From positions 1 to 39,468 of the IMG/VR virus record IMGVR_UViG_3300027714_000045: DNA of 39,468 nt; one strand, given 5' to 3'. This DNA comes from a virus. Below, one piece after another: positions 2,151 through 34,497 of the stretch. Below the pieces are notes generated by a model, which saw only the letters and a program-made list of their open reading frames with translations, did no database searches and had not been told where the DNA came from. A program made the position numbers and the translations under genes. Numbering within the stretch: position 1 is the stretch's first letter; each line of letters opens with the position of its first letter.

Positions 2151-4559
2151 ATGAGAGTTGAAGGCACATACAAAACACCGATACATGGTGTAAGTACACT
2201 AGCACCTAGAAATAGGGCTGATGGTCATGCCGAGTTACAAGTTAACTTACGGTCGGACCCAGTACAGAAGTTGACACGTAGACCACCATTGGTGTTTGCA
2301 AATCATCTTATGCCAATAGAAGAAAGTCACTATCGGTATGTTCATCATGAGTATCGTAAAGACGGTGATACGTTTACCATAATGGTGAATTTAGATAACG
2401 GTCATGTGTCAAGTTTTAAGAACTACATACAGATTGGCGTAGCACAAACAGCAGCAGCACCTTATTGTGTTAGTGGTGATATTGTGATGCGTACTATCAA
2501 TGACACTACATACTTATTGAACAAGGACAAGATAATCTTACGTGGTAACTCAATAGATACCGAATTACCTGTAACACACATAAACGTATTGTCAGCATTG
2601 AATTATGGTGAGACTTTAACAGTAGGTATAGGTAGTATCGCTGATTCACCAGCAACAACAGTGTCTTATACAGTACCAGATTTAGGTACTACTACTACAC
2701 CGGATTATGATGCAGCAGACAAAGCAAGAGCTACTACAGCAGTGGCCAGAGGTATAGCAGACGCATTACTAGCACAAGCTTGGTTCACAGCTTCGTATGA
2801 TGTGTATGTGTTGGGTTCATCTTTAGCAGTTAAGCGGAAGGCTGGTACACTAATAGGCAACCAGTGGGTTACTATGTATATCATAACAGGTCAGGGTGAC
2901 AGGAGTGCGCGAGTATTCGGTCAACGTATATCTGAGACAGAAGGTTTACCTTTATACTCAGTAGACGGAACTATCATAACAGTTCGACCTAACCCAGCAA
3001 GCCCAGATGGTACATACTACCTAAAGGCTGAGCGAATTGCGGATGATGAAGTTACAACAGATATATACTTAGAAGAGTGTGTATGGGCTGAAACACGCTC
3101 ACCACATGAAACGTATGATATATGGCCAAACGCCATGCCACATACTGTGACTTACGATAACACAACTGAGCAGTTTACTGTAGCAGCAGGTGATTGGAAA
3201 GACCGCAGAACAGGTGATGATGAATCATGTCCCTTCCCAGAGTTTATCGGTGAGCGTTTAGTAGACATTGGCCAGTTCCAAAACCGGCTTGTGTTCTTAG
3301 CAAAAGGTTCAGTGTACATGTCAGAAACAGATGATTATGGTAATTGGTTTAAAGCATCAGCTATCAAGTTATTAGTTACTGACCCTGTAGGAATTACATC
3401 CAGTGCAGCAGATACAGAAGCGATTCAACATATCAGTTCTCACAACAGAGACATGTTACTAGTAGCAGCTAACGGTCAATTTAAGATTGATGGTAATGTT
3501 GCAGTTACACCACAGACAGTGAGTATGCCCAAGGTATCTTCATATGATTGTGATGTGACCGTAGCACCTGTACCTATGGGTGCTAATGTTATACTAGGTT
3601 TGAATCAGGGTGCATCAGCAGGCATTTTACAATATACAACTAAGAAAGCAACTGAGCAAGAGTTCGGCCAAAACGTATCAAAGCATGTAGTTGGACTTAT
3701 GAAAGGTCACATTACTCGAATGGTAGGTAGTGTAAACTCTGACATGATTGTAGTTACCACCAGTGAAAGTGCTGGTAATATATTGTATGTGTATGAAAAC
3801 TATGATGACAGTGGTAAGGTAATGCAAAACTCATGGAGTACATGGGAGTTACCGGACGATATTGATATCATTGGTTTGACGTTTACATCAGATACATTAA
3901 AGGTATTCACACGACACGATAATAATGTTTCTTTATATGAAGTAGATTTATACTCTCATGTAGAATCAGAAAGTGGCGAGGTCTTCTTAGATTACTTAGT
4001 AACATTAGATTCTCAGTACGGTCTATCCGTAGAGTTACCGGACAATTATCCGTGGTCAGATGATACGATTGTTGTGCAAGGTGAGGGTTCGTTATATCCT
4101 TTGTACAAATCAACGTATACCAAAGTAGGTAATGTATTAACATTTGATGAAGATTTGACATTCGCTGGTGGCTGTAAAGTACATGTAGGTGTACCAGTGT
4201 CAGCAAGATACATCCCGACACAACCATTCCGACGAGATGAAGCTGGTCTTATCTTAACACAAGATAGAATCAGGGTAGCACGTTGGAGATTGTATGTGGT
4301 AAACACTCACGAAGTAACAGGTAGGATTATATCGGACTACGTAGAACTAGACGACCAACCGTTTGAAGGTAGAGTGATGGGACAGACGAATAATCTGATA
4401 GGTAAGAAACATGCACATACAGGTGACTTGATTTTTAGTTACTCGCAAGATTCATCACAAGCTAAGATAGAGTTCTTCACAGAAGGTTATCTAGGTTTGA
4501 CTATCGGTGCAATATCGTGGAATGGTCAATTTTATAAATCAAGTGGGAGAATGAGATAA
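2151..4559 (+). CDS. Tail tubular protein B (T7 gp12-like, nozzle)
   Basis: This 802-residue protein matches T7 gp12 in length (794) and position. The start region (residues 1-45, GTYKTPIHGVSTLAPRNR then D-H-A-E-L-Q-V-N-L-R-SDPVQKLTRRPP) is the conserved N-terminus of podoviral nozzle proteins, which begin with a Q/H-G-V-S-Q/T segment and R-RPP. The middle contains the beta-rich FPEFIGERLVDIGQFQNRLVFLAKGSVYMSETDDYGNWF (residues about 363-401), typical of the beta-propeller part. It forms the tail nozzle below the gatekeeper and carries the fibres. It starts 2 bases after the preceding stop and its stop overlaps the next start by one base, so translation is coupled. Confidence 0.88.
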   Translation: MRVEGTYKTPIHGVSTLAPRNRADGHAELQVNLRSDPVQKLTRRPPLVFANHLMPIEESHYRYVHHEYRKDGDTFTIMVNLDNGHVSSFKNYIQIGVAQTAAAPYCVSGDIVMRTINDTTYLLNKDKIILRGNSIDTELPVTHINVLSALNYGETLTVGIGSIADSPATTVSYTVPDLGTTTTPDYDAADKARATTAVARGIADALLAQAWFTASYDVYVLGSSLAVKRKAGTLIGNQWVTMYIITGQGDRSARVFGQRISETEGLPLYSVDGTIITVRPNPASPDGTYYLKAERIADDEVTTDIYLEECVWAETRSPHETYDIWPNAMPHTVTYDNTTEQFTVAAGDWKDRRTGDDESCPFPEFIGERLVDIGQFQNRLVFLAKGSVYMSETDDYGNWFKASAIKLLVTDPVGITSSAADTEAIQHISSHNRDMLLVAANGQFKIDGNVAVTPQTVSMPKVSSYDCDVTVAPVPMGANVILGLNQGASAGILQYTTKKATEQEFGQNVSKHVVGLMKGHITRMVGSVNSDMIVVTTSESAGNILYVYENYDDSGKVMQNSWSTWELPDDIDIIGLTFTSDTLKVFTRHDNNVSLYEVDLYSHVESESGEVFLDYLVTLDSQYGLSVELPDNYPWSDDTIVVQGEGSLYPLYKSTYTKVGNVLTFDEDLTFAGGCKVHVGVPVSARYIPTQPFRRDEAGLILTQDRIRVARWRLYVVNTHEVTGRIISDYVELDDQPFEGRVMGQTNNLIGKKHAHTGDLIFSYSQDSSQAKIEFFTEGYLGLTIGAISWNGQFYKSSGRMR

Positions 4560-5111: not shown

Positions 5112-7424
5112 ATGGCAGAGTTTGGCCAACCAGCAAGAACAGCAACCAGTGACGCCAATGCAGGGTTAGTTAATCCACCAGCAATGCGCGAAGCTAACAG
5201 GACGGCAACGACCCAGAGTGTTAAAGCAGTAAGTGATATTGATGGAGCAGCCAAGAACCTTGGTCGCTCTCTCGGTACAGCCTTTACCAAACTACTCGGT
5301 AATAAAGCCCAAAACATTAATGCTCAACGAGCGTTAGATGCAAGTATCAAACAAGGTGATTCTGAGGCAAGAGACTCAGTAGCAGAAGGCAACAAACGTA
5401 CTGGCTGGAAGAAAGCTATGTATGGCGAAAGCCCAGAGTATCAAGGCTACCGTGAGTCACAGCAACGTGGTGTAATGAATGGTGTTCAACAGGATTATAT
5501 TGAGGCTGCTAATACAGTGTCAGAATCCGCAGCTGATACACCAGAGCAATATGCTGAGAAACTAAGGGCACAATTAGACACAAAGCTAACAGGCTATGAG
5601 AGTGACCCTGAGACGCAGCAACTGATAACACAAGCTTGGGCTAAAGCGTCAGGTAACTTAGTACGGTCACAGTATAAAGAACATACAGCTTTTGCCTTAG
5701 AACAGAATCGTAAAGAGACTGAGCAAGGTATTCGTGGTACGTTCGATACATTCACAACTGATGCAAAGAATATAACGTCTGAGGCAGAGGCTACGGACTT
5801 TCACAATAAAGCTAAGGCATTCTTTAGCGGTGCAGCTAAACCGCCTACAGCTGACCCTGTGGCTTACTCAGGTATGATGAAAGCCCAGTTAGCCCAGTCT
5901 ATTGCTGGTGGTAATATTGGTATGCTTAATATGGCCAAAGAGTTTGGTTTTCTTAAGAACTATAATGCTAAAGAACAGCAGGTACTAGATACCGCTATCA
6001 ATAAGTATGATATTAAAGCAAGTAATGCTATTAGTTTATCTGTAGCAGAAGCTCGTACAGCCTTCAACAACGTGTCCGGTCCAGACGCGCACCAACAGTA
6101 TCTCGACTTAAAAGAAGAGGCTATGGCTGCGCTTGACGAACACGCTGAACGTGGGTCAGGTACTGCTAAGTATGACCTAAGTATTCAGAACGGTAAGAAT
6201 AGTATTGATGCTTTATTAAAGCCAGCTGAGAAAAAGGCAATTGAGGCAGAGGTAGCAGCAGCGCGATTCGAAGACGTTATAGATGCACAGGCGGCAGCTG
6301 GTGAAGGTGACGGTGGAAAGCTATACGATATTAGCCCTACAAAAGAAGAGTCTGTGGCAGCTGCTCAGGAGCGTACAAAGCGATTAGTAATGTCTATCAC
6401 AGGTGATGAAGAATTGACAAATCGTGAAGTTGCAAGTGCTATCTTCTCACAACCAGTAGAAGTTGGTTCACGTGTTGTAGATATGTGGGCAGATTCAACG
6501 AGTGATGGTGGTCTAGTTAAAACACTAGGTAAAGCATACATCGGTGGGTACGCTACAGAGGGCAGTATGGTTGATGAAAATGGTCAACCTACCGAAGCAG
6601 CACAAAACGCTATGCAAGTGTTCGCACAGTTTGAGTCAGCAGACAGAGCTAAGTTCTCCAATCAGTTAGGCCAAGATGCTTATAATGAATATCAGATAAT
6701 CTCAGAAGGTCAACAGCAGGGTAAAACCGCTGATATGATTGGCAGAGATGTGGCCGAGTATCATAAAAATATTGAGAACAATCAGTACTTCGCAGCAGAC
6801 TGGAATGACGTTGGTGTTGGTGGTAAAGACGGTTTGACTAAACGTGAGTACATGTCAAATTTAATAAGTGGCTTTACAAAACAGAACGCGGAAGCTGGTG
6901 ATATCGGTGACTACTTAGCAGTATATGGTAAAGCATTAACAGCTAGTCGTGGCGACCATGCAGCAGCTAAGCAAGCTGTCCATGATGCAACTAAGAATAA
7001 AGCAATAATGTATGACGGTGTACCTATACATGGTGCTGAAAGCATCAACAAGATACTACCTAACTATACAGTACCGGCATTGTTAGATGCAATACAACAG
7101 CCTGACCAGAACCTAATGACAGGTTTGATTGCAATAGGTATGGGTAAGACAGAGGACGAGAACGGTATACCTATACGAAACACAAAGACGTATGGTGAAC
7201 TCAAAGGTACAATGACATACAAGATGGCTCCGAATGGTGGCATGTGGATGGATAGTACTAAGTTCCAATCACCTGTATTAATAACACCAGAGCATTTCCA
7301 TGCTATGGATAACTTTATTAAACAGCGCAGTAATGCAAAACAATTAAAGGCAGAGATTGAGAAACAGAGTTTCCTTAATCGTGCACAACAATCAACGGAT
7401 GCACAAAATAGAACAGCAAGATAA
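5112..7424 (+). CDS. Internal virion protein, T7 gp15-like
   Basis: The 770-residue protein matches T7 gp15 (747) in length and in position between the gp14- and gp16-like genes. It is strongly helical, Ala/Lys/Glu/Gln-rich and without signal peptide or membrane span. The early part (QGYRESQQRGVMNGVQQDYIEAANTV, residues about 115-140) is of the kind seen in gp15, where an N-terminal Q/Y-x-G-Y segment is common. In T7 gp15 forms the periplasmic tube joined to gp14 and gp16. Start ATG 5112 has a good AGGAG ribosome site 7 bases upstream. Function is inferred from synteny more than from motifs. Confidence 0.75.
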   Translation: MAEFGQPARTATSDANAGLVNPPAMREANRTATTQSVKAVSDIDGAAKNLGRSLGTAFTKLLGNKAQNINAQRALDASIKQGDSEARDSVAEGNKRTGWKKAMYGESPEYQGYRESQQRGVMNGVQQDYIEAANTVSESAADTPEQYAEKLRAQLDTKLTGYESDPETQQLITQAWAKASGNLVRSQYKEHTAFALEQNRKETEQGIRGTFDTFTTDAKNITSEAEATDFHNKAKAFFSGAAKPPTADPVAYSGMMKAQLAQSIAGGNIGMLNMAKEFGFLKNYNAKEQQVLDTAINKYDIKASNAISLSVAEARTAFNNVSGPDAHQQYLDLKEEAMAALDEHAERGSGTAKYDLSIQNGKNSIDALLKPAEKKAIEAEVAAARFEDVIDAQAAAGEGDGGKLYDISPTKEESVAAAQERTKRLVMSITGDEELTNREVASAIFSQPVEVGSRVVDMWADSTSDGGLVKTLGKAYIGGYATEGSMVDENGQPTEAAQNAMQVFAQFESADRAKFSNQLGQDAYNEYQIISEGQQQGKTADMIGRDVAEYHKNIENNQYFAADWNDVGVGGKDGLTKREYMSNLISGFTKQNAEAGDIGDYLAVYGKALTASRGDHAAAKQAVHDATKNKAIMYDGVPIHGAESINKILPNYTVPALLDAIQQPDQNLMTGLIAIGMGKTEDENGIPIRNTKTYGELKGTMTYKMAPNGGMWMDSTKFQSPVLITPEHFHAMDNFIKQRSNAKQLKAEIEKQSFLNRAQQSTDAQNRTAR

Positions 7425-7435
7425 CAGGAAGAGAT

Positions 7436-10400
7436 ATGAGCATTGTAACACGTAGTAAAGATGGTGACACCTTAGATACAGCAGGAGGTCAGGCTGTACG
7501 ATTAGAAAATGTAAACACAGAAGAGAGCGTTCATCCTGACAGAAGCAAGAACACAGCCGAGGGTGCGGAAGCATCTAAGCTGAGTGCAGCTGTTGTAGCG
7601 GGTGGAGACGTCACAGCAGATATGAATAGCAAGGACCATTTTGGTCGTGCTGTTGGTACTGCTAAGAGGACTGTTAACGGTGTTGATATCGACATGGGTT
7701 TCGTACAAATGACCGCTGGTTATTCCCAGTACGAAACCCGCTTCGGTGAGCAGAAAGACCCTGCTTTGCATAATGACTACAAAGAGTTCTTTTCAGATTT
7801 GAGTCCTTACCAATATGGTGAGTTACGTCAACCTTTAGAGGAAGATGAATTTAGGGCTATTGAGTTAGCCCAAGTCAACTTAACAAAAGTAACTGAGCAA
7901 TACAACGACGGTGAAGCAACTCAAGAAGAGTTCGATGCTGCATTGTTCGAGTTACATAAGGACCAAAGTAAAGTAGCAAGGTTCCAACATCAGAAGGCTA
8001 ATTGGGGTCAGAAGATTGACCCAGCAACAATGGGTACTACTGATAAAGAGTCTATACTTTTTGCACTACAGTTCTCACCAGAAATGGCTGAACAATATAA
8101 CAAGGCTACCCGTAATGGTCATTTGAGTATTATGAGTAGACCTGAGCAGGAGAAGACTTTCTGGGAAGGGTTCAACGCCACTTATGAACAGATGGCAGGT
8201 TTGGCTAGTTTATCACAATCCGATGAATTGACGTCAGCGCGTATGAACAAGGAAGACTATGATATCCCTGTAGAGGAATTTACTAGAGGTGTTGAAGACC
8301 CTAAGTTTCATACAAAGATACTAGCAGAAGTAGATGAATATGGTGAGGCGGCTGGCCTTATGATACGTGACCAAATCATCGAAGATATAGCTAACAACAA
8401 AGTGACCGACAATATGCCATTATATGCACAGGTTGGTTATGGTGCGTTGGCTATGGTAGCTGACCCGTTTACTTATGCTACAGGTCTTGGTACAGGTACA
8501 TTACTGAAAACCGCTGGTAAGCATTTTGGTATGTTCCAAGTAGCTAATCAAATACAAGGTCGCTTATGGACGGGTAGTAAATACTTCACCAACTCTGCTA
8601 AGGTAGCATCATGGGCTGGTGCAGGTATGTTAGAAGAATCTATCTATGCCTTACCACAACTAGGTGCAGACCATACATTCACAGTTAGAGACTACGGTCT
8701 TACAGTTGCTATGGGTTCAGCATTCGGTGTTGGTTTAGGTAGCGTTGGTGCTGGTGTAATGAAAGGTGTTGGTAAGTATCGTAACCATCAAGGAGTATTA
8801 GAAGCTCGTAGAGAAGAGATACGTGAGTTGGACGAGAACATAAACAACCCTGATGCTATCAAGCATACCCCACAAGAACGAATAGATGCAGATGCAGCTA
8901 TGGCAGAAGTCATGGGTGAAAAGCCTACCTCGTCCACAAAAGGTGGTGTAAGTGTTAAAGAAGCTGGTATAGATACCGGACCCAAGAGAACAAAGTATAC
9001 TCCGTGGGAAAGTATTAATTCTATATCAACAAAAGGTTTTCAGAAGGCAGCACGTAAGGTACGTGACTTGTTTCCTAAAGACTCACCAATGGCTATACTA
9101 CTTAATCAACAGATTGGTTTCAATAACAATAAAGCTAATGTTAAACGTAGTCCCGAGCTTATGGAAATGTCTGAGAGTATTAACTCCGAGATACTACACC
9201 TAGCCTCTGCATACCCTGATGGTAATATACCAGCAGCACGTTTACAAGAGATTAGAGATGTTATGTTCACTCAAAAAGAGTGGACTGAGGTCGATGTATT
9301 TGACCAAGTGTTACAAGGCAAGACTAGTAACCAGACTGAATTACTAGGACAACACATTGACGAAATCCACTCACATTATGAAGATGGTACGATACCAGAA
9401 GCAATGACTGAGGCTGAGTTTATCACAGAGTTCTCTGACGTAATTAACAGAGACTTTAGTATAAGTGCAGAGGATGCGTTTGAGTTGACTGCTGGTAGGT
9501 CGCGGGAAGTATCATTAATCCACGACATGTTAGATATGAACAAACTAGCTAGAGAATCGGGAGACGCTGAGTTTACCGCGCTTGTACAAAAGCTTAATGC
9601 TTTAGCGAAGGAGAAGTTAACTGAGTTTGACTTAGCTTCGGAAAGGTTGAATGAGTTAGGATTAACAGACCCTACTACCAGAGTTAAAGTAGACCAACCA
9701 TACAAGACGACTCTACGTAAACGTACTGGACCAGAGGTTTTGGCCGAGGTAAGAAAAGACCCTGAGCTTGTTAAACTTATGGAGAAGATTGGTGGTTTAG
9801 ATAAAGTAACACCTGAGTCCTTAGCCAAGTTAAGAGAGAATACCGATGATGGAAAACTTATAGATAGGCTAGAAGCTATAACATCAGAGGAATTAGCTGA
9901 GTTTGAGTTAGACAATCCTAATATCACTATCCAAGTGACCAAGCCCTTTAAGAAGTCTATGCGTAAGCTATCTGGACCTGAGATTGTTGCTAAGTTACAG
10001 GAAGAGGGTGTAGTACAATACTCTGACAAGAAGAACAGTAAGGGTGGTCGCATAACTACTCCTGAGTGGAAGAAGCGTTTCTCTGAATTACGTAAAGAAG
10101 ACCACACGTTGTCACCAGAAGTTAGACAGGTTGGTGATTTACAGTCACGTGAAGTTGGTTCTACACAGAACATGCACGATGCTGCCATTGACCCCGATGC
10201 TACTCCGGTACACTTCTCTATTGATGATGCTGAGAAGCGTATGGTTATGTTACGACGTAAACCAGACCCAACGAAGGAAGAGATATTCGAAGCTAAGATG
10301 TTAGTCGAACAGATAGCACGTTCTAAACAAGAGCGTATTACCAAGTTAGACAAAGATGCAGAAGAAGGTCCGATACTCACTAGAAAACTCAAAACTAATT

Positions 10401-13400
10401 CTAGTAAGAACGCTTTCAAAGACCCTACAGTTGAGTCAATGGAAGGTTTAAAGAAGAAGTTACAAGCTATTAACAAACGTAATGGTAGTACTACTGTACC
10501 GGAAAAGTTAGATGATACAGCTAAACAGAGACGTTTAGATGCAATCACAAAACGTATGCAGAAGATTGGTCGTTCCAAGGTACATAAACAAGTACTAAGT
10601 AATGGTACGTTTAATGACTTGGTGGATGTGCTTAGAGCATCTGATACTTTAGCTGTGGCTAACAAAGCACACAAAGAACGTGTAGCAAAACAGAAAGCGG
10701 AGAAGCCTGAGACGAAAGCAGCCCCAGAGCAATCAGCAGAAGCTAAGGCTACAGCAAAAGAAGTTGAAGCTGACATAGCTGCACGTACTAAGAAAGTAAA
10801 AGAGTTAGAGACGGTTGTATCAAACTCAGAAGCTAAGATACAAAGTATCCACGATGCAGTGACTGACCCTAACGAAAAAGGTAACCCTGTATCAAATGAC
10901 CCTACGGCCATGCACCCTGAGAAAGTGTTAAATGACATAGATGTACTTATGACAAAGATATCTGGTAGAGTACACAAGGATGCAGCAATTGAACCAGACC
11001 AATACAAGAAGAGTTTATTTGAGCAATTGGATAGACAACTTGATGCGTATGGTGATATTGAAATACGGGCCGCAGTAACAAAAGCTTGGAAAAAGCGTGC
11101 AACTGCTTTGATAAATGAACACGCTGTCGCACGAACTAAGTTCCTAGAGAAGAAGGCAACCCACCAAAAACTGGTTAAGGTACTTGAATTAGAGAAAGCT
11201 AAGTTAGAAGAGGTTAAAGCCAAAGCTGACGAACCTACTCCAAAAGTGGAAGAAGAGTTACCAACCACAGCGTTAACCGAAGAAATGGTTGATACATTAG
11301 AACATGCACCTGAGACTATGACACCTGATGAAAAAGCCACAGCTGAGAAGTTATTAGCTGATGCTCAAAAGAAGGTTGTTGAGGATAAGCAACATAAAGT
11401 AACAGCTGGTTTGGCTAATTTTGAGGAAAGTGGCGAGAAGCGACGATTCATGTTAGCTATACAACCAACTGGTGCACTTGATTATGTTGGTCGCATGTTA
11501 GGTTCCATGACACGTGGTGTTGGTGAGTTATTCTTAGATAGCAAACTAACGAGTGCCATGTTCTTCGGTGCTAAAGTAACTGAGACTGGTAGAGGTTTTG
11601 GAGGTAACGCTAAACGCGCACCATCCTCAGCAATCATCACTGATGCAACATTCAAGAATAGTGCTAGTAAAATAGTTCCACAATACCGTAAGATTATTGA
11701 TGCTTATGCACAAAGCAAAGGCAAAGGTGCTTGGGGTAGAATGAAAGCTAGAGAACGTTCTGGTGAAACTAGTGAGGTGGTTCAACAGTTTAACGAAGAC
11801 TTGTTCTTAGTACAATCGTACAGACGTCAAGGAAAGCCAATACCCAAACACATCGACAAGTCCGTAACAGACTTTGCTGACCAATGGGATTACTACATGG
11901 ATGCTAACCACAACATGCTAGTGGATGCTGGTGCAGCTGGATTCAGAAAAGACCGTAAGGTTAAACACTATATCCCGCACATCTGGCAACAAGGTAAGTT
12001 TAGAGCCGCAGTAACCACGCATGGTAAAGCTAAGGTAATTAGTGCACTAGCGAGAGGTTACAGAAGTTTAGAAACTGACGCGAGTCCACTATCCAATGAC
12101 AAAGCCAGAGAACAAGCTGAGAAGTTGTTCGATGATGTTATGAGTGACGACTTTGCCAATATTGACCAGTTCGAACCTACTATGGATTCACGTGCTAAAC
12201 AGCGTAGAGACATAGATACAACTGCTGACTATGAGGGTCTTAAAGTAATGGACTTACTTGAGACAGATGTGATAGGTATGGGTATTAAGTATAGTAACCG
12301 CGTAGCTGGTTGGGTTGGTTTAGCCAAAGGAACTGATGGACTGTTATCGACCAAAGCAGATATCAATATATTCAGAAGTAACATGATTGAAGAAGCTACC
12401 GAAAAGGGTGTTGACCCTAAGAAGCTCTTAACCATGTTCGATGATACGATTGACCAACTGTTTGGAAGACCTACTGCAAACATGTACCAACGTGATAAGC
12501 AAGGTAACTTAACAAAAGGACTCGACCCAATACTACGTAACATGAAAGACTTAGCTGTATTAACAAGAATGGGTGGTTTAGGTTCTACTCAGTTGATAGA
12601 GACAGGCCAAGTAATTACACGTAGTGTTATGAACATGTTCAGTGATGAAAAAGTAGCCTCGAAGCTACTGGCAATGGGCCGTGGAGACAAGACGGACAGC
12701 CGCCTTATAGAAGAAATTCAATCAATTTCCAACATAACGGACGACCTTGAGTTCTTAGATAGGCAGACAGTTCACTTAGACCAAGCAACCTTACATGAAA
12801 TGAGTAAAGTACGTCAAATGTCGTTACAGATAGCTAACAAAGCTACAGGTGGTGACATAAAGGCAGAAGCATCTCGCGGATTAGGTAAAGTAACGGGCTA
12901 TAATGCAATACGTCGTGCACAATCAAGAGTAACACAAGGAAGCTTCATACTAGATATAGCCAACCACTTTACCAAAGGTACAGGTGTAATGGGTAATCTA
13001 CGTATGGCTGACGTCGGGCTGACAGATACATTAGGTAAGAACGCTGCCTTAGAGAAAGCTTTCAAAACACACGCACAGTTTGATAACAACGGTGTGTTAG
13101 AAAGACTCAACATAGGTGACTGGGATAAAGGATTACGCGAAGAGTTGCAGTACGCAATGATACGTGATGAAGCACAACAGATACAACGTACACACGTTGG
13201 AGAGTTGCCGCCATTTATGAATAAACCCATGATGGCTCTCATATTTCAATTCCGTTCTATGCCACTCGTTGCACAAAGTAAATCAATGGGTAGGGCTATG
13301 GCCTTCGGTGATGCCGAGGCTGTAACAGGTGTACTGTTAAATGCAGCACTAGCAGGTCTGGTTCGTTATGGTAAGTTCATAGCATTAGGTGGGGCAATCG

Positions 13401-14188
13401 GAGCAGTGGCAGGTGAGTTAGTGTTAGATGTACCCGACTCGCAACAAACACAAGTACCTAAGTATATCAACGCATTTGGTATATTTGCTGACATGTATGA
13501 CCTAGTTTTAGGTCAGGACGGTCTAAAGAACGCTGATGGTGTGGGGTCTGCTATTGAGAAAGTAGCCGGAGAAATCCCAGTATTAGGTTTGATGAATGAT
13601 TACCTAGAAGTAGGTAAGGCAGGTAGTCAAGGTGACGTACAAGGTATGGCTGAATCAGCCGGAAACCTATTACCATTAAGTAACACTGCAATAGGAGAAG
13701 TAATGGCAGAGATGCTATCCAAGATGCTTGAGATGTTTACATATCATGGCCAACAGGCTGTTGATAAAGTAGAGGCACAAGAGGGACCGTTAGATGCTAC
13801 TGAGAAACGTATTGTTGAAGTCGAAGGTTTAGTAGACGGAGAATACGAAGATGATAAAGGTGTTATTACCTCTGGCGTTGGTCAGACAGGTGAGAACATT
13901 GGCAAACCGTTTAAGGAAACTGTAGCCAAATACGTCAAACGAACCAAAGGTGTCTTTGAAGGGTTTGATGATTTCTCAGAAGAGTTACAAGCAGAACTAG
14001 TTCAACTAACTTACCGTGGTGATGTAAAGTCATCATACAAGTGGGTAAAGCACTTTAATAAAGGTGATTATCAATTAGCAGCAACCGAACTACTAGACAA
14101 CAAAGATTACCTTAAGCGTAAAGCAGATGGTGACGATGGTGTAACTAAACGTTTAGAGGAAGCCAGTGAGGTGATAGCTAAACAATAA
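7436..14188 (+). CDS. Giant ejection protein (T7 gp16-like) with N-terminal SNase-like domain
   Basis: At 2250 residues this is far longer than T7 gp16 (1318). Residues 1-100 look like a staphylococcal-nuclease fold. They contain D9-G-D11-T, R22-L-x-x-V-N27-T-E-E30, G43-A-E45-A and D67-x-F-G-R71, followed by a VNG...VQMTAGYS segment. Spacing agrees with nuclease residues Arg35, Asp40, Glu43 and Arg87, except that Asp40 is replaced by Asn27. Residues about 330-450 carry hydrophobic helices. Residues 720-1300 are Lys/Glu-rich coiled coil and hold an internal duplication (726-775 and 818-858). The last 900 residues resemble the helical gp16 tail, including the FQFRSMPLVAQSKSMGRAMA segment, and include a Gly/Ala-rich hydrophobic stretch near 1975. 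I find no lytic transglycosylase signature. By T7 analogy it spans the inner membrane and pulls DNA in. AGGAAGAG precedes ATG. Confidence 0.8.
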   Translation: MSIVTRSKDGDTLDTAGGQAVRLENVNTEESVHPDRSKNTAEGAEASKLSAAVVAGGDVTADMNSKDHFGRAVGTAKRTVNGVDIDMGFVQMTAGYSQYETRFGEQKDPALHNDYKEFFSDLSPYQYGELRQPLEEDEFRAIELAQVNLTKVTEQYNDGEATQEEFDAALFELHKDQSKVARFQHQKANWGQKIDPATMGTTDKESILFALQFSPEMAEQYNKATRNGHLSIMSRPEQEKTFWEGFNATYEQMAGLASLSQSDELTSARMNKEDYDIPVEEFTRGVEDPKFHTKILAEVDEYGEAAGLMIRDQIIEDIANNKVTDNMPLYAQVGYGALAMVADPFTYATGLGTGTLLKTAGKHFGMFQVANQIQGRLWTGSKYFTNSAKVASWAGAGMLEESIYALPQLGADHTFTVRDYGLTVAMGSAFGVGLGSVGAGVMKGVGKYRNHQGVLEARREEIRELDENINNPDAIKHTPQERIDADAAMAEVMGEKPTSSTKGGVSVKEAGIDTGPKRTKYTPWESINSISTKGFQKAARKVRDLFPKDSPMAILLNQQIGFNNNKANVKRSPELMEMSESINSEILHLASAYPDGNIPAARLQEIRDVMFTQKEWTEVDVFDQVLQGKTSNQTELLGQHIDEIHSHYEDGTIPEAMTEAEFITEFSDVINRDFSISAEDAFELTAGRSREVSLIHDMLDMNKLARESGDAEFTALVQKLNALAKEKLTEFDLASERLNELGLTDPTTRVKVDQPYKTTLRKRTGPEVLAEVRKDPELVKLMEKIGGLDKVTPESLAKLRENTDDGKLIDRLEAITSEELAEFELDNPNITIQVTKPFKKSMRKLSGPEIVAKLQEEGVVQYSDKKNSKGGRITTPEWKKRFSELRKEDHTLSPEVRQVGDLQSREVGSTQNMHDAAIDPDATPVHFSIDDAEKRMVMLRRKPDPTKEEIFEAKMLVEQIARSKQERITKLDKDAEEGPILTRKLKTNSSKNAFKDPTVESMEGLKKKLQAINKRNGSTTVPEKLDDTAKQRRLDAITKRMQKIGRSKVHKQVLSNGTFNDLVDVLRASDTLAVANKAHKERVAKQKAEKPETKAAPEQSAEAKATAKEVEADIAARTKKVKELETVVSNSEAKIQSIHDAVTDPNEKGNPVSNDPTAMHPEKVLNDIDVLMTKISGRVHKDAAIEPDQYKKSLFEQLDRQLDAYGDIEIRAAVTKAWKKRATALINEHAVARTKFLEKKATHQKLVKVLELEKAKLEEVKAKADEPTPKVEEELPTTALTEEMVDTLEHAPETMTPDEKATAEKLLADAQKKVVEDKQHKVTAGLANFEESGEKRRFMLAIQPTGALDYVGRMLGSMTRGVGELFLDSKLTSAMFFGAKVTETGRGFGGNAKRAPSSAIITDATFKNSASKIVPQYRKIIDAYAQSKGKGAWGRMKARERSGETSEVVQQFNEDLFLVQSYRRQGKPIPKHIDKSVTDFADQWDYYMDANHNMLVDAGAAGFRKDRKVKHYIPHIWQQGKFRAAVTTHGKAKVISALARGYRSLETDASPLSNDKAREQAEKLFDDVMSDDFANIDQFEPTMDSRAKQRRDIDTTADYEGLKVMDLLETDVIGMGIKYSNRVAGWVGLAKGTDGLLSTKADINIFRSNMIEEATEKGVDPKKLLTMFDDTIDQLFGRPTANMYQRDKQGNLTKGLDPILRNMKDLAVLTRMGGLGSTQLIETGQVITRSVMNMFSDEKVASKLLAMGRGDKTDSRLIEEIQSISNITDDLEFLDRQTVHLDQATLHEMSKVRQMSLQIANKATGGDIKAEASRGLGKVTGYNAIRRAQSRVTQGSFILDIANHFTKGTGVMGNLRMADVGLTDTLGKNAALEKAFKTHAQFDNNGVLERLNIGDWDKGLREELQYAMIRDEAQQIQRTHVGELPPFMNKPMMALIFQFRSMPLVAQSKSMGRAMAFGDAEAVTGVLLNAALAGLVRYGKFIALGGAIGAVAGELVLDVPDSQQTQVPKYINAFGIFADMYDLVLGQDGLKNADGVGSAIEKVAGEIPVLGLMNDYLEVGKAGSQGDVQGMAESAGNLLPLSNTAIGEVMAEMLSKMLEMFTYHGQQAVDKVEAQEGPLDATEKRIVEVEGLVDGEYEDDKGVITSGVGQTGENIGKPFKETVAKYVKRTKGVFEGFDDFSEELQAELVQLTYRGDVKSSYKWVKHFNKGDYQLAATELLDNKDYLKRKADGDDGVTKRLEEASEVIAKQ
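9611..10009 (+). repeat. Internal protein-level duplication in the giant ejection protein
   Basis: Codons 726-775 (9611-9760) and 818-858 (9887-10009) encode two diverged copies of one unit. Each runs EKLTEFDL or EELAEFEL, then T-R/I-V-K/T-VDQPYKTTLRK or VTKPFKKSMRK, then R-T/L-S-GPEVLAEV or GPEIVAKL. The shared core is L-x-E-F-x-L ... P-Y/F-K-x-x-x-R-K ... G-P-E-V/I. The DNA is diverged, so this is an old duplication. Function is unknown. Confidence 0.65.
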
Positions 14189-14233: not shown

Positions 14234-17200
14234 ATGGCTAACGCTTCCAGAACGTACATAGGTGACGGAGTACAAACGATATTTCCAGTAAGCTTTACGT
14301 TAGGCTACATAGACAAGAGTTACGTATTCGTTCACTTGGAATCCAACCCGTATAACTTCCAAGAGAATTATACGTGGGTTAACGACACACAGATAGAACT
14401 AGTCAACCCATTAGCAAATGCCGCTAGATTAGTGATTACACGTAGAATACCAAGAAACAGTTTAGTAAACGATTACGTAAATGGTGCGGTCCTTCGTGGT
14501 AAACACTTAGATGATTCTAATTTACAACATTTAATGTTAGAAGAAGAAGACGCAGACGCACTTGTATTACTAGATTATCGAATGGGTGTAGTCGAAGCCG
14601 CAAATGGTGGAGGTAATGGAGTAATCGGTGGTGGTGGTATCAACGTCGATGACATAAATGATTTACTAGATGCTGAACAAGTCGGGATGGTATCTGTATC
14701 AATGTATTACGCACCTACATCGTATCAGTATGAAGCAGCGTTATATTTAGTTGACCCTACACAAAGGCATGGTGGTGGAACTTTCATCTGGCGTGCTGAT
14801 ATAGAAAAGAAGTGGCATGATGGTGGATTGTTCATAGACCCAGAAGTACCGTTCAACGGTGCATGGAGTGGTCTTGAAGATTTCCTAAATGGTGTTGGTG
14901 CATCTGGTATACAGTATGCAAAAGGTGTATGGGTAAGACAGTTTGTAGGAAACCCTAACACAACAATGTGGGGCGCGGTAGGTAACAATGTTGCAGATGA
15001 ACATTTTGCTATCCAAACTGCTTTGAATACACTAAGAACATTGAACGATTCAGCAACAATAGGTGAAGGTAACTCAGGTGCGGTAAACAGATTACAACTT
15101 ATAGGTAATAATCGGTTAAAGAAATACATTCATATCCCAATCAATATATCATTGTACGGTGATAAGAATACAATATCTTACCCACAACGAGATTCAAGTT
15201 ATGCCAATGAATACAACTGGCAGAACACACCTGTTATATATGCAGACAGAGATATAGAACTGGCCAGTGATGGTAGTGTTGTCGAGATGGGTGAACAAGT
15301 ATTACTTGAACACATCGTAGTTGATGGTTACGACCTAGACCACGGCACTTGGTATCCAGCTGTGCGAGGCGTTTCTGATTTAGGCGGTGTAGCATCGTCA
15401 ACAGCAGAACTACGTGTAATCGACCCTGACGATACAAGACAGGACGGTGGACTATTCATCGAAAGTGATGGTATCTTAGGTATGGAACTTGGTGATGCTA
15501 GTTATGTCGGTTGGCAGTTAATCGTAAGAGGCGGTAATCGCACAGGTGTTGGTATTAGTACTGACCCAGCAATAACACCAGCTACACCTTATAAATGGGT
15601 AGTAGTCGGGACGTTAGCATCAGGGTTCGCTATATCATCAACTGGTTGGGTTACATGTGTCAATCCTACAACAGCTGAGACTAAGTACGTAACTATTTAC
15701 GTGTACGACGCTGATGGTACAGAGAAGCATAAAGATTTCTCGTTGTCTGTAAGTGATGTAATTATAATCCCACAATATCCAGACATGAGTACATGTACGG
15801 TTGGTAATGCTTACTACGAGAAAGTGGAAGTTAAGAACAAGGGTATACAAAATCTCTACTATTGGTTCCTAGATGGACCAGAGGGATTAGTAATGGATAA
15901 GTTAACCGGAATCATTTCTGGTACACCTGCACTCGGTTCACATGGTGATTACAAAGCTAGAGTAGCTGTAACGTATCAAGACCATACAGACTTTGCAAAA
16001 TGTGAGTTAGTCAATGAACTACCTTACTCAATGTCATGTACTAATACAGGTTATCCAAAGATATTTAGTAATACTTTATTGGAGACAGTTTTAAACGTAC
16101 CATACGAAGCTTACATAAGAGTCGTTGGTGGTGTTGGACCGTATACATGGGAGATTAACCTCGAAGGTGAAGTGGTAGACCGTTACCCGAATACACAGGC
16201 TGGTTACCCAACTGCTACACAAATGGCTTTAGGTATGTCAATTGCAGTAGCTCCGAATGGAGTCGATTGTATTGTATCAGGTACGCCCACAACAACCGGA
16301 GGATTTCATTTCCATATAAAGGGAACAGATGCCACAGGTTATACCGTTGGTTCCTTCATCTTATTCTCAGGTGGTAAAGCTGAGAAGGTATTAGAGTTAA
16401 ACATAGGTAAAGCTAACTATTGGCCAGTCGCAGTAAAAGGTCATCCGTACAATTATCAATTGTCTACAGACACAATTGGGTCAGCTATGACTTGGAGTTG
16501 TGGGAACTTACCAACTGGGTTAGTTCTTAATGACGTTACCGGCTTAGTAACAGGTACGCCTGTAGGTGCAAACCAAGCTCATGGTGTTAGTATGAGTTGG
16601 GGAGCTACAATTGACGGTTGTAATATACGACACTTTAAGAGTGGTGCTGGTGTACTGATGTATGGAGCAACTAACGTAAATAGAATATCTAACACATTCT
16701 TAAACCAGTGTGACCAAGGTCTTCAATGCACGAAAGTCTTCGATGGTAGATTCGAATCGTTATACATATACTCATGCCGAGAAGGTATAGTATTGAAGAG
16801 TGGCTCAAGTGCCAACACGTTCTCAAACAGTAGAGTCGAGTACATCTACGAAGCGGGGATGGTAGCAGAGTATTCTAACGAGAATATCTTATATGGTATG
16901 TATTTCGATACATGCGGTCATGAGGCATTAACGTTAAAGGATTGTTCTGATTGGACCATGACAAGTAACTTAGCTTATCGTTCAGCGAGACGCGCACCTT
17001 GGCGGGAGTCTTATATCCTACCAGTAGTTGCAGCAGAACACTCGAACCATGTTAAACTTATTGATTGCTACAACATAGCATTCACAGGTAACAACTTTAC
17101 AAGAGGAAGTGATACATCATCATCTAAGCACGTATTCAGATATAAGAACAACGGGGCGAACTTCGTTCATCCTAAAGTATCTATGTATATTGAAAACTGT

Positions 17201-18730
17201 ACAGGTGTAACCATATCAGGTAACTCATTAGCAGGTTGTACTCACGAATCTCTTGAGATTATAAATAGTGATGTAGATATTGGTGTTAACACCTATCAAG
17301 ATGTGAACATGTTTCAAACTGCCGTTACAGACGGTGATTTAGCATTTAAGAACTTGATAACTAACGCTAGTAAAGATGTATTCTACAGTGACACTACATT
17401 AGATACGTTCAATGATGAACGTTACCCACTAGCGGCAATATGTGTAGCAGGTACTGCGGTAACTGATACTAGTCCGTTTGCAACAGCTATGGCCTCGTTT
17501 GGAACACCAGCGTTTGTTGGTGGTATATTTGATACAGCGATAGAACTCGATGGGGTAGGTGATTTCCTACAAGTTCAAGTAGCCAACAATACAGACCAAG
17601 CAGCACCGACTTATTGGGGCAATGGCGCGTTTTCAATAGAGCTATGGGTAAGACCAAAGACATTGAAACAGTCAACTATAATTGATTTCGGTAGTACAAG
17701 TGAGATTAATACCGTAGCACTGACAATGGGACCGTTAGGTCATTTACGTGTTGCTAACAATAGAAGTACTGCGGGTGAGTCAATTGACTATGAGACTAGA
17801 GCGCCTCTACGGTTAAATACTTGGGTCCACATACGACTTTCACGATACCCAAATAAGATAGCACAGCTATTCATAGATGGAGTTTTGGAAACAACTTACA
17901 AGATGGACAAGTCTATCATTGCTGGTTGGTACAGACCCTTAATCGGGCGCGGTGGTTTCACCAGTGCAGTCGATTATTTCCATGGTGATGTAGAAGAACT
18001 TAGAGTTTATAAAGGTGAGGCTTACGCCAGAAGTGAAGATTACAAGTTGCAGGATAGAAAACGTACAGACGTCCAGTTAGTCGATGGAACTGCGCTATAC
18101 TTCTTACCCACAGCTACTCAAATCAATTCACCGATTGCTGACGGTTCATACTCTGTCAAAGTTGATGTTACGCCTACTACCTTACTCCCAACCATCATCG
18201 AGATGCGGGATTCTGGTGACGTAGATGCAGAACAAAAGCTAGGAGTTAATGGCCAATTATCACGTAATACAAACCCGTCAAACAGGTACTTCAATATAAC
18301 TAAGGCTATGGAAGTTACGCCACCTGCGGCATATCAAGTAAACCGCTTTGACGTAGCACTGGCTAAGAGTGGTGATTATAAGCTTTATAACCAGTTGAGA
18401 GGTAAACGATTAGCTATATCAGTATGGCTTAAATCTGCCAATAGTAACGTGTTACGTTCTACCTTGAGTATTTACTCAGGTTCATCTGACAACAACTATG
18501 CCTCAGAAGGAGGTTCAACAGGTACTATAACCTTAACACCATTATGGCAGAAGCTATATCTACCATTTGACTTTCCGAAGTTAGATTTGGTTGACACGGA
18601 CAGGGATGATTGTTCAGCAGCATGGAGATTAGAGTTTGATGACACCGGAATTGATTATGACTTCGATGTTGGTGGAGTAATGTTACACACAGTAGCACCA
18701 CTATTTGCATCAACACCATATCAGGACTAA
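14234..18730 (+). CDS. Tail fibre/spike with T7 gp17-like N-terminus, Ig-like insert and LamG-like domain
   Basis: This is the 1498-residue receptor-binding protein. Residues 1-120 match the T7 tail-fibre anchoring domain (Y-x-GDGVQTIFPVSF near the start, then VNPLANAARLVITRRIP and a DDSNLQHLMLEEEDAD run), so it hangs on the nozzle. Residues about 210-440 and 783-1010 look like a right-handed beta-helix of the pectate-lyase type, as in depolymerase spikes. Between them sit four Ig-like domains (about 435-505, 508-595, 610-715 and 728-783), three ending in the GTP signature (SGTPALG, SGTPTTTG, TGTPVGA). Residues about 1065-1268 resemble a LamG/concanavalin-like lectin domain (FSIELWVRP, WVHIRLSRY, RPLIGRGG). 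The last 200 residues are a beta-rich module of carbohydrate-binding appearance. GAGG precedes ATG by 5 bases. Enzyme activity is not certain. Confidence 0.85.
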   Translation: MANASRTYIGDGVQTIFPVSFTLGYIDKSYVFVHLESNPYNFQENYTWVNDTQIELVNPLANAARLVITRRIPRNSLVNDYVNGAVLRGKHLDDSNLQHLMLEEEDADALVLLDYRMGVVEAANGGGNGVIGGGGINVDDINDLLDAEQVGMVSVSMYYAPTSYQYEAALYLVDPTQRHGGGTFIWRADIEKKWHDGGLFIDPEVPFNGAWSGLEDFLNGVGASGIQYAKGVWVRQFVGNPNTTMWGAVGNNVADEHFAIQTALNTLRTLNDSATIGEGNSGAVNRLQLIGNNRLKKYIHIPINISLYGDKNTISYPQRDSSYANEYNWQNTPVIYADRDIELASDGSVVEMGEQVLLEHIVVDGYDLDHGTWYPAVRGVSDLGGVASSTAELRVIDPDDTRQDGGLFIESDGILGMELGDASYVGWQLIVRGGNRTGVGISTDPAITPATPYKWVVVGTLASGFAISSTGWVTCVNPTTAETKYVTIYVYDADGTEKHKDFSLSVSDVIIIPQYPDMSTCTVGNAYYEKVEVKNKGIQNLYYWFLDGPEGLVMDKLTGIISGTPALGSHGDYKARVAVTYQDHTDFAKCELVNELPYSMSCTNTGYPKIFSNTLLETVLNVPYEAYIRVVGGVGPYTWEINLEGEVVDRYPNTQAGYPTATQMALGMSIAVAPNGVDCIVSGTPTTTGGFHFHIKGTDATGYTVGSFILFSGGKAEKVLELNIGKANYWPVAVKGHPYNYQLSTDTIGSAMTWSCGNLPTGLVLNDVTGLVTGTPVGANQAHGVSMSWGATIDGCNIRHFKSGAGVLMYGATNVNRISNTFLNQCDQGLQCTKVFDGRFESLYIYSCREGIVLKSGSSANTFSNSRVEYIYEAGMVAEYSNENILYGMYFDTCGHEALTLKDCSDWTMTSNLAYRSARRAPWRESYILPVVAAEHSNHVKLIDCYNIAFTGNNFTRGSDTSSSKHVFRYKNNGANFVHPKVSMYIENCTGVTISGNSLAGCTHESLEIINSDVDIGVNTYQDVNMFQTAVTDGDLAFKNLITNASKDVFYSDTTLDTFNDERYPLAAICVAGTAVTDTSPFATAMASFGTPAFVGGIFDTAIELDGVGDFLQVQVANNTDQAAPTYWGNGAFSIELWVRPKTLKQSTIIDFGSTSEINTVALTMGPLGHLRVANNRSTAGESIDYETRAPLRLNTWVHIRLSRYPNKIAQLFIDGVLETTYKMDKSIIAGWYRPLIGRGGFTSAVDYFHGDVEELRVYKGEAYARSEDYKLQDRKRTDVQLVDGTALYFLPTATQINSPIADGSYSVKVDVTPTTLLPTIIEMRDSGDVDAEQKLGVNGQLSRNTNPSNRYFNITKAMEVTPPAAYQVNRFDVALAKSGDYKLYNQLRGKRLAISVWLKSANSNVLRSTLSIYSGSSDNNYASEGGSTGTITLTPLWQKLYLPFDFPKLDLVDTDRDDCSAAWRLEFDDTGIDYDFDVGGVMLHTVAPLFASTPYQD

Positions 18731-19648: not shown

Positions 19649-20860
19649 ATGCCTTATGGTAGAGTAGGAAATAGGAACAAACAAGTAATAGTTACTCAAG
19701 CGAGTGACCTAGCAGGTGTCTTAGACAGTACAACAAGTTACTTCCTAGACGGTATTATAGATATGGGTAGTCAAGCGATTACAGTACCCGCAACAGGGTT
19801 AACCATATCAGGGTACACTTTTGATATATCAGGATTAACATCATCCGTAGATAACTACACGATGTTTGTGTCTGATGGCGGTGGTTCGGGTAACGTATTA
19901 TTCGACAACTTACACATAGAGGTTTCGGGCGTTAGTTCACAAGTATATAACATTGTTAGTAGCAACGGTTTTACTGCTATAGAAGTAGAGAAGGTAAACT
20001 ACAATAACTGTACGTCTCTTGGGACTATGGATAACTACAGGCAGGGACTTGAGACAGGTACGGGACGTTTTGGTGGTAGTCCATCATTGACACTAAAGGG
20101 AATCTGGTTAGGTGGTTTTAGAATAACCACATCAATTACACGTAACATGTCAGACACAACTACTGAGCCGCTGTTCAAAGCTGGTGTAGGGTTGGTCATG
20201 AACTCACGTTTCTTGACAGACATGAATGTTGACTTAGGTACATTACAACCATTTCTGGATTTTAGTCCGACTAACTTCGCTAACCCATCTTCGTTAGAGT
20301 TGGTGAACGTACTACTAACCCGTGATGGTGTTATTAATCCAGCGGATGCAAACATAACACCAAACATAAGTGAAGGAGACTTAGTTTCTGCTTGGTCAGG
20401 TAATCACGGTGTCCACAATACTCTTGTTGGTGGTCAGAGCGATGTAACAGTGGCAGTGGAGACAGGTATACCAGTATTTAATACAGCGGTAAGGTTACTG
20501 GGTACACAAGTCGCAACAGACCTACAACACTTTGATGCACCTGCAAACGGTGAGCTTAGGTTCTTGGGTACGTCGCAAACTGACTACTCAGTTAGCTGGG
20601 ACTTCCTTGTAGATGGTTCACACGGTGGAGAGTATCGACTGGAACTACATCGTAACAGAGGTGGTGTACATACAGTTATATACACACAAACTCATTATAT
20701 ATACAGTCTACAAGGTAGTAGAGACGTTGCGCACTTTTCAGGCGCACGTCACGCACGTATATTACAAGGTGATATAATTTACTGGAAGGTAGCTAACGTA
20801 ATAAATACTTACAACTGTACAGTAGAGGCCGGTTCTAGTTGGGCAATTGAAAACAGGTAA
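19649..20860 (+). CDS. Beta-helix-like structural protein between TerS and TerL
   Basis: The 403-residue protein opens with VIVTQASDLAGVLDSTTSYFLDGIIDMGSQ-type text (residues 13-42) and continues with repeated short beta strands (ITVPATGLTISGYTFDISGL). This looks like a right-handed beta-helix of a kind often seen in marine phage genomes beside packaging genes. The last 130 residues (from about 270) form a separate beta-rich section with LRFLGTSQTDYSVSWDF and a TYNCTVEAGSSWAIENR end, suggesting a jelly-roll or trimeric tip. No signal peptide or catalytic motif is visible. A virion role (secondary spike or decoration) is inferred from the fold impression and late position. A GAGG ribosome site lies 8 bases before the ATG. 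Confidence 0.6.
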   Translation: MPYGRVGNRNKQVIVTQASDLAGVLDSTTSYFLDGIIDMGSQAITVPATGLTISGYTFDISGLTSSVDNYTMFVSDGGGSGNVLFDNLHIEVSGVSSQVYNIVSSNGFTAIEVEKVNYNNCTSLGTMDNYRQGLETGTGRFGGSPSLTLKGIWLGGFRITTSITRNMSDTTTEPLFKAGVGLVMNSRFLTDMNVDLGTLQPFLDFSPTNFANPSSLELVNVLLTRDGVINPADANITPNISEGDLVSAWSGNHGVHNTLVGGQSDVTVAVETGIPVFNTAVRLLGTQVATDLQHFDAPANGELRFLGTSQTDYSVSWDFLVDGSHGGEYRLELHRNRGGVHTVIYTQTHYIYSLQGSRDVAHFSGARHARILQGDIIYWKVANVINTYNCTVEAGSSWAIENR

Positions 20861-32990: not shown

Positions 32991-33514
32991 TGAGTCTTAC
33001 AATCGAACTACTACTACAGCAGTTAGAAGCCAGTAACATTAAGCTACCTGCACTGCTAAAGCTTTTAGACGACCTTGGTGTTAATTACATCATTGCAGGT
33101 GGCCATCCACGTGACCTATTCTTTGGTAAAGAATCACGTGATGTTGACATATTTGTGGATGATTTAGACCGCATCACGAACCAATTGGACATGATGGGTA
33201 TTGATAATCATTGGTTCGAATCCTACCTTTCAGAAGATGACGTTACACCTATCAACCGGATAAACGGTGTAACCAAGTTAGCTAATGATATCGACCTTAT
33301 TGGTATGTCAGAACAAGCAACAAGTCCACGCGACCAAGTCATTAACTATTTTGATTACAACTTTAATCAATTTATCATGATAAACGAGTCACCTACATTT
33401 ATTGGAGACAATTTTGGGACATTAACTAGAACTAGTAATGAACCGTTAACAGAACAACGTGCAGCCCATATAACAGGCAAAGCACTATTGGAGAAGTGGA
33501 AGTGTCCAGACTAA
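32990..33514 (+). CDS. Pol-beta-type nucleotidyltransferase
   Basis: The 174-residue protein has the head signature of CCA-adding/poly(A) polymerase-type nucleotidyltransferases: IIAGGHPRDLFFGKESRDVD (residues 34-53), with Gly37-Gly38, Arg41-Asp42 and metal-binding Asp51-x-Asp53. A third acidic strand, NDIDLIGM, comes at about 103-110. It has no neck/body domain, being about half the length of a cellular CCA enzyme. It could add nucleotides to RNA ends or nucleotidylate a protein. The substrate is not evident. The following phosphoesterase gene overlaps its end, suggesting joint use. Confidence 0.8.
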   Translation: MSLTIELLLQQLEASNIKLPALLKLLDDLGVNYIIAGGHPRDLFFGKESRDVDIFVDDLDRITNQLDMMGIDNHWFESYLSEDDVTPINRINGVTKLANDIDLIGMSEQATSPRDQVINYFDYNFNQFIMINESPTFIGDNFGTLTRTSNEPLTEQRAAHITGKALLEKWKCPD

Positions 33515-34497
33515 GAAAGCTATTTACCAACGACGAGGTACTGGCAGCTATTGATAGTACTAAGACAGATAAGGCAGCAGCAGCAGTTATATCTGAACTT
33601 GGTCGTGGTGATATATCAAAACAGTTGATGCGCTATTGGCGACGTCAACTACGTGAAGTAACAAAGCGGGATGGTACACCCTATCAAGGGACAACTGTAC
33701 TGGACCGTAAGATTAGAAATGACGTTGTATTACGTACTCCGGCAAAGACGGATGATGATAGAGACGAGGTGGTTAAGGTTAACAATAGACGCATTCTATG
33801 TATACCCGACCAACACGCACCGTATCACCACCCTGACGCTTTAGACTTCTTGGCAGCAGTAGCAGCTAAGATTAAGCCAACACGTGTTATCAACCTTGGT
33901 GACGAGACTGATGGACATGCTTTGTCTATGCACGACTCTGACCCCAGCTTAGATAGTGCTGGTGTTGAGTTATCTAAAGCACGTACATGGTTACAGGCAC
34001 TTGAGCGAATGTTTCCGGTGATGGATATCTGTCACAGTAACCACGGTAGCTTAATCTACCGTAGAGCTTTCAAGTCCGGTATACCTACCGAGTACATCAA
34101 GTCATATCGTGAAATCCTTTTCCCTGATGGGCAAGGGCTAGGTTGGGAATGGAAGGGTAGGCATGTTGTCACGTTACCCAACGGTGAGAAGTGCATCTTC
34201 CAGCATCAATCAGCAGGCGATACATTGAATAACGCAGCACATGAACGTTGTAGTATTGTAGAAGGCCATGAGCATGGTAAATTCGAGATACAGTACCGTT
34301 CATCAACTACTGCCTTATATTGGTCAATGATATCAGGATGCTTGATAGACCCCAAAGCCTTGGCCTTTGCCTACGGTCGGTTGTTTCCGAAGAAGCCACT
34401 ACTAGGTTGTTCAGTCATACTAGATTCGATACCACGGTTAATACCAATGGAATTGAATACTGTTGGCAGATGGACAGGTAAGTTGAATGGCTTCTAG
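33502..34497 (+). CDS. Calcineurin-like metallophosphoesterase with N-terminal helical domain
   Basis: The product is 331 residues from GTG 33502. I chose this start because GGAG lies 8 bases upstream; GTG 33496 is too close and no ATG lies nearby. Metal-ligand motifs are IPDQH (Asp103, His105), GDETDGH (Asp134), SNHG (Asn180, His181) and GHEHG (His256, His258), the order of the calcineurin/Mre11 superfamily. Residues 1-60 form a helix-turn-helix-like part (NDEVLAAIDSTKTDKAAAAV then SKQLMRYWRRQLRE) that could bind DNA. It may be a nuclease/phosphatase for DNA or RNA ends; the target is unknown. It overlaps genes on both sides. Confidence 0.85.
   Translation: MSRLRKLFTNDEVLAAIDSTKTDKAAAAVISELGRGDISKQLMRYWRRQLREVTKRDGTPYQGTTVLDRKIRNDVVLRTPAKTDDDRDEVVKVNNRRILCIPDQHAPYHHPDALDFLAAVAAKIKPTRVINLGDETDGHALSMHDSDPSLDSAGVELSKARTWLQALERMFPVMDICHSNHGSLIYRRAFKSGIPTEYIKSYREILFPDGQGLGWEWKGRHVVTLPNGEKCIFQHQSAGDTLNNAAHERCSIVEGHEHGKFEIQYRSSTTALYWSMISGCLIDPKALAFAYGRLFPKKPLLGCSVILDSIPRLIPMELNTVGRWTGKLNGF

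Follow-up and report, generated by a model that had tools for sequence, protein, structure and literature searches.

A staphylococcal-nuclease-family domain at the N-terminus of a T7 gp16-like ejection protein

Among the closest known counterparts of the protein analysed here is gp16 of phage T7, which likewise carries an N-terminal enzyme domain and a peptidoglycan hydrolase in one polypeptide (PMC8954989). Residues 1-156 of T7 gp16 hold a lytic transglycosylase and form periplasmic wings, and the protein refolds upon ejection (PMC8954989). The transglycosylase is not universal among gp16-type proteins, being absent from P22-like homologues, and exchanges of peptidoglycan hydrolases between such proteins are already known (PMC8954989).

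Nucleases on other virion proteins are also known or predicted already. MuF polymorphic toxins carry nuclease domains on phage head proteins that are proposed to be delivered (PMC5576092), and the main text of that paper makes no mention of a staphylococcal-nuclease-like (SNase) domain on MuF proteins. The baseplate hub ME3_37 of Acinetobacter phage ME3 (L084 1695-8684), a 2329-aa protein that probably belongs to family phrog_8809, has a SNase (53 bits) adjoining an M23 peptidase. A SNase or other nuclease on an ejection or internal virion protein was not found in the literature searched, outside which most subscription journals lie.

The protein described below differs from these systems. MuF toxins sit at the C-terminus of MuF proteins in temperate phages and come with immunity genes (PMC5576092). 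Like our protein, ME3_37 is a large virion protein that combines a SNase with an adjacent peptidoglycan hydrolase, but the pairing is independent: ME3_37 is a myovirus baseplate protein with an M23 peptidase, an unrelated core and Asp kept at position 40.

A gp16-like gene in a T7-like late region

The window, by which we mean the whole 39,468-nucleotide stretch analysed (IMG/VR record IMGVR_UViG_3300027714_000045), is a virus record with a T7-like late gene order. Genes for the major head protein, a tubular protein (PF17212), the nozzle (PF25675) and a small protein are followed by a gp15-like ORF, a gp16-like ORF, a tail fibre gene, and packaging and terminase genes; a T7-type RNA polymerase is also encoded. 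The features that concern us are:

2151..4559, + strand: tail nozzle protein, T7 gp12-like (PF25675, E=4e-112)
5112..7424, + strand: large ORF at the position of T7 gp15 (periplasmic tunnel protein), in a gene order common with H4/4 gp38, a “putative internal virion protein”
7436-14188, + strand: gp16-like ejection-protein ORF, 2250 aa
7436..7735, + strand: SNase domain, residues 1-100 (Pfam, free-standing-SNase profile, AF2, Foldseek), with putative metal or catalytic residues D9, D11, R22, N27 (Asp40 position), E30 (Glu43) and R71 (Arg87)
7736..8155, + strand: clade-specific tail (YxxxFGxxKDPxxHxxYKE) and helical linker, residues 101-240, conserved in alignments
8156..13720, + strand: gp16-like core, residues 241-2095 (phrog_342, “internal virion protein with endolysin domain”, E=3e-74; phrog_37474)
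13730..14185, + strand: GH24-type lysozyme domain, residues 2099-2250, triad E2130-D2139-T2145 (homology, AF2, Foldseek)

The ORF at 5112..7424 had no match in a Pfam search. We assign the following ORF to the gp16 type because its core matches phrog_342 and because 305 phage records show similarity to the 2250-aa protein by tblastn; it also lies after the gp15-like gene and before the tail fibre gene. The ejection-protein setting proposed in an initial annotation of this DNA is thus borne out by core family and gene position alike. T7 shares both the order of nozzle, small protein, gp15-like, gp16-like and tail fibre genes and the phrog_342 core, but its gp16 has about 1320 aa and begins with a lytic transglycosylase, whereas the window protein begins with a SNase and ends with a GH24-type lysozyme. 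The initial annotation saw no transglycosylase, which is correct for the front of the protein (Pfam gave no SLT family match, and the SNase is there instead); as regards peptidoglycan hydrolases it went astray, since it overlooked the C-terminal lysozyme.

Similarity between Tawavirus gp16 and the window protein begins only at residue 204-244. Matches of the core to the Pfam families T4SS, Ferritin and H-NS were weak, all under their cut-offs, and we rejected them as helical or coiled-coil noise. Elsewhere in the window, the 1498-aa tail fibre (14234-18730) combines a T7 tail-fibre N-terminus with putative Ig domains, a beta-helix and a concanavalin-like (Laminin_G_3) domain, a 403-aa ORF of the unknown family phrog_16509 (19649-20860) has the packaging genes on one side and the large terminase gene on the other, and a metallo-phosphoesterase (phrog_221; 33496-34497) is encoded within the replication genes.

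Identity of the N-terminal domain

The N-terminus of the gp16-like protein is a true SNase-family domain. In Pfam the window copy alone is borderline, with PF00565 scoring 15.7 bits (E=0.02, below cut-off) for the whole ORF and 20.0 bits (E=0.001) against a cut-off of 21 for the domain alone. Homologous domains from related phages exceed the cut-off (L028, 40.3 bits, E=5e-10; L027, 37.8; R8W, 26.9; H4/4, 24.3; L010, 21.8), and four further copies fall just under it (L002, L012, L029 and L030; 18.4-19.3 bits). Membership by the curated cut-off therefore holds for the domain family through its homologues, which settles the assignment.

A profile built from free-standing SNases only, with no ejection-protein sequences, recovered the window domain at E=9.7e-13 among the 191 frames of a six-frame translation; residues 1-130 scored 49.3 bits, compared with 8.7 for the best of 2000 shuffles. 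The hhalign probability of the SNase match is 99.6. A phmmer search of the PDB with the 125-residue domain gave no match, and a profile of four phage copies found staphylococcal nuclease there (E=3e-5). The AF2 model, of moderate confidence (mean pLDDT 69; 57-83 in ten-residue blocks of residues 1-90), has strands at residues 2-9, 12-15 and 20-23, a helix at 41-54, strands at 59-66, 72-80 and 83-86 and a helix at 87-93, which is the SNase order and includes the OB-barrel succession beta1-beta2-beta3-alpha1-beta4-beta5-alpha2. When the model was compared with the PDB by Foldseek, the best 18 matches were all staphylococcal nuclease (probability 1.00; best E 9e-4). Both checks that the initial annotation had proposed, a profile search and a structure prediction, thus agree with its reading of residues 1 to ~100 as a SNase, even though PF00565 itself falls just short for the window copy.

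The residues it had listed (D9-G-D11-T12, R22, N27-T-E-E30 and D67-H-F-G-R71) are in place, and so is their spacing, with five residues from R to N and three from N to E as in Arg35-Asp40-Glu43. Asp21, Arg35, Glu43 and Arg87 of the SNase active site correspond to D11, R22, E30 and R71, which are invariant in all ten copies known from this ejection-protein lineage. The invariant set in the alignment comprises D9, G10, D11, T12, R22, E30, S31-V32-H33 and R71, so named in the window copy, and the equivalents of D19, D21, R35, E43 and R87 are unchanged at about 40% identity. The domain ends at about residue 93-100, and the tail specific to the clade reaches about residue 128. Fold and active-site residues are those of staphylococcal nuclease (thermonuclease, PF00565) except at Asp40; the window domain also differs in sitting in a phage virion protein and in being acidic, and the net charge of the phage domains (-5 to -10) is unlike that of a typical nucleic-acid binder.

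At the position of the calcium ligand Asp40 the window copy has Asn, and all ten copies have Asn or Gln. The Gln occurs in L002, followed by V-G where others have T-P, and this one copy has thus lost more of the metal site. We compared this position with free-standing SNases from 143 genomes of Gammaproteobacteria, the class to which Marinobacter lutaoensis belongs. A regular expression read residue 40 in 32 sequences, but 5 belong to genomes that had initially been found by a pattern requiring Asn or Gln there, and therefore only the 27 readable sequences of the class search (L051-L080), chosen regardless of residue 40, were counted. Among these 27, which pass the cut-off and are best-scoring matches with at most one per genome rather than a random sample, residue 40 is Asn in 12 sequences and Asp in the other 15. 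Asn at this place is thus nothing unusual for the family, and residue 40 does not define membership. To judge from these sequences, Asn in place of Asp40 need not imply a dead enzyme. The replacement reported by the initial annotation is thus real, while its suggestion that the fold might be kept only for binding is weakened by the 12 free-standing proteins that share it.

The nearest free-standing relatives are bacterial SNases with the motif VNTPESVHxD (for example L033, L034 and L039), which share with the phage copies the Asn at the Asp40 position, NTPESVH, a G..AS helix and an S-x-Y-x-TKYG-like tail. Relatives with NTPESVH and the TKYG-like tail were fetched with the pattern demanding Asn or Gln and so show that the subfamily exists, not how frequent it is. 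Unlike the phage copies they stand alone, unfused to any virion protein, and they seem to carry a signal peptide or a membrane anchor.

A single SNase lineage and a mobile lysozyme

The same fusion of SNase and gp16 homologue, which the initial annotation had proposed to seek in related podoviruses, is present in Alteromonas phages vB_AspP-H4/4 and vB_AmeP_R8W and in IMG/VR contigs L002, L010, L028, L029 and L030. Contigs L027, which extends no further than the beginning of the core, and L012, which stops before it, match the pattern and bring the number of SNase copies in the ejection-protein lineage to ten. A chance resemblance to the SNase motif or a false contig join might be entertained because the window sequence alone lies just below the Pfam cut-off. 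However, the independent profile match (E=1e-12, with shuffles at 8.7 against 49.3 bits) and the recurrence of the fusion in separately sequenced isolates and several contigs refute this explanation, to which we attach almost no probability.

The architecture is as rare as had been supposed: of the 305 annotated phage records in which a matching protein occurs, just 3 include the SNase, so that the domain marks one lineage. In a tree of 53 SNases the ten copies cluster together (1 change, with 0 of 500 shuffles as low; group present in 75% of bootstraps), and within this cluster the window copy lies on a long branch (0.82) and has NTEE where others have NTPE. The SNases of the Foturvirus phages H4/4 (gp39/gp40) and R8W (gp43/gp44), likewise on a gp16 homologue, are 39-41% identical to it. 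Between H4/4 and R8W, dN/dS is 0.09 for the SNase domain and 0.08-0.14 for the rest of the protein, with dS near saturation, and on these sequence comparisons the domain is under purifying selection. As the front domain is common to related marine phages, it is a real, conserved part of the protein. It was probably acquired once, by the ancestor of a marine Autographiviridae lineage comprising Foturvirus and its relatives.

The lysozyme varies in its position. In the window it is 53-55% identical to H4/4 gp39 and R8W gp43, both annotated as endolysins, and its AF2 model (pLDDT 92) has phage endolysins as top Foldseek matches. It scores 19.3 bits (E=0.0015) against PF00959, under the 22.3 cut-off (R8W, 21.6), and is hence classed as GH24-type and not as a curated member. 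The lysozyme fold is accompanied by the triad E-(8)-D-(5)-T, whose three residues do not vary across ten homologues, and the spacing (E, +9 D, +15 T) is the same as in T4 lysozyme, with its triad E11-D20-T26. A free lysozyme made from an internal start at ATG 13733 was considered and rejected, as a convincing ribosome-binding site is absent there.

Whereas the window lysozyme is C-terminal and in frame, that of Foturvirus lies N-terminal to the SNase in another frame. In H4/4 and R8W a slippery A_AAA_AAG directly precedes the lysozyme TAG (L004 6476-6489 and L005 6473-6486, respectively), where a -1 shift would fuse the lysozyme to the SNase-gp16 protein. The H4/4 record joins gp39 to the SNase-core frame by an annotated -1 frameshift, and the R8W record has separate genes. 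The sequence downstream of the two slippery sites was examined for a stable RNA structure that could stimulate the shift, and none was found (z -1.4 and +0.7). The SNase-core ORF of R8W has its own start, AGGAG-ATACT-ATG, and frameshifting is therefore not required in that phage. In L010 the lysozyme, SNase and core occupy a single uninterrupted frame of 1976 codons, and in L002 and L028 the ejection protein is without a lysozyme. R8W gp43 has been treated as a host-lysis endolysin (PMC8228385); its fusion to gp16, seen both in L010 and in the window, suggests that the lysozyme also has a role in the virion. By sequence comparison the GH24-type lysozyme thus appears to be a mobile module, C-terminal here, N-terminal in Foturvirus and missing from the protein in others.

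A small ORF resembling an M15 peptidase, a weak match under the Pfam cut-off, overlaps or abuts the end of gp16 in L002 (16053-16421) and L028 (8894-9235). The same lysozyme module occurs at the N-terminus of a giant N4-like Schitoviridae virion protein in Vibrio phage PJN101 (L082 3001-3366), whose relatives are named virion RNA polymerase, and at the C-terminus of a giant virion protein of Zobellviridae (L083 5001-5438).

Possible roles of the SNase domain

The reading that we prefer, with a probability slightly better than even (about 0.52), is that the SNase acts as a Ca-dependent nuclease at the periplasmic wing, outside the tunnel, in the place held by the transglycosylase domain in T7 gp16, while the GH24-type lysozyme would cut the peptidoglycan. 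By analogy with T7, the protein would be expelled after adsorption and its N-terminal part would become an outer wing of the gp15 tunnel. Since the N-terminus of T7 gp16 is periplasmic, the SNase would also lie in the periplasm, where marine Ca2+ would be available and the phage's own DNA would be shielded within the tunnel. There it could cut DNA or RNA unspecifically, possible targets being DNA that rival phages are bringing in, or nucleic acid of the host where entry takes place. We count in favour of an active nuclease the ten copies with invariant active-site residues, the purifying selection, the commonness of Asn40, the T7 wing position and the example of ME3_37; the metal site of L002, the long branch and NTEE of the window copy and the acidic charge count against it. 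The main difficulty is storage, because the capsid of a marine phage is permeable to Ca, and a Ca-dependent nuclease stored there with the packaged DNA would threaten the genome of the phage itself if it were not masked before ejection. Refolding on ejection, as in T7 gp16, could unmask it.

An inert domain would avoid this danger, and the SNase fold may instead persist without catalysis, as a structural or binding part that packs on the gp15 tunnel or grips the DNA end that enters first. Binding rather than cutting is the supposed function of the SN repeats in Tudor-SN, and SND1/Tudor-SN structures come next in Foldseek after staphylococcal nuclease, although these matches are weak (E 0.08 and above). 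Asn or Gln at the Asp40 position in all ten copies and the degraded metal site of L002 point the same way. However, a role in binding alone would not call for the equivalents of D19, D21, R35, E43 and R87 to stay unchanged while overall identity is about 40%, Asn40 is commonplace in free-standing SNases, and the domain is acidic; we therefore consider a binding-only role possible but doubtful. It is distinctly improbable that an active nuclease is carried into the host cytoplasm for an early attack on host DNA or RNA. Free Ca2+ is very low in the cytoplasm and SNases require it, and a nuclease there would meet the phage's own incoming DNA. The SNase also adjoins the lysozyme, whose substrate is periplasmic, in Foturvirus and L010. 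Although phages do join nucleases to virion proteins whose delivery is presumed, as MuF proteins show (PMC5576092, PMC5512222), the N-terminus of T7 gp16 stays periplasmic (PMC8954989).

The domain offers a defined, mutable handle on the role of the gp16 N-terminal wing. That the lysozyme can sit at either terminus is relevant to which of the two gp16 ends reaches the cell wall, a point that competing models of T7 ejection do not decide. If the SNase is active, the question becomes how a virion keeps a nuclease beside its own genome in calcium-rich seawater. The fullest form of the periplasmic reading, which we put forward as speculative and, taken as a whole, rather unlikely, is a marine podovirus lineage with an active calcium-gated nuclease as its periplasmic wing, masked in the capsid, switched on by refolding during ejection and destroying competing DNA at the point of entry. 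Were that action against rivals true, the ejection protein would double as a built-in weapon against other phages.
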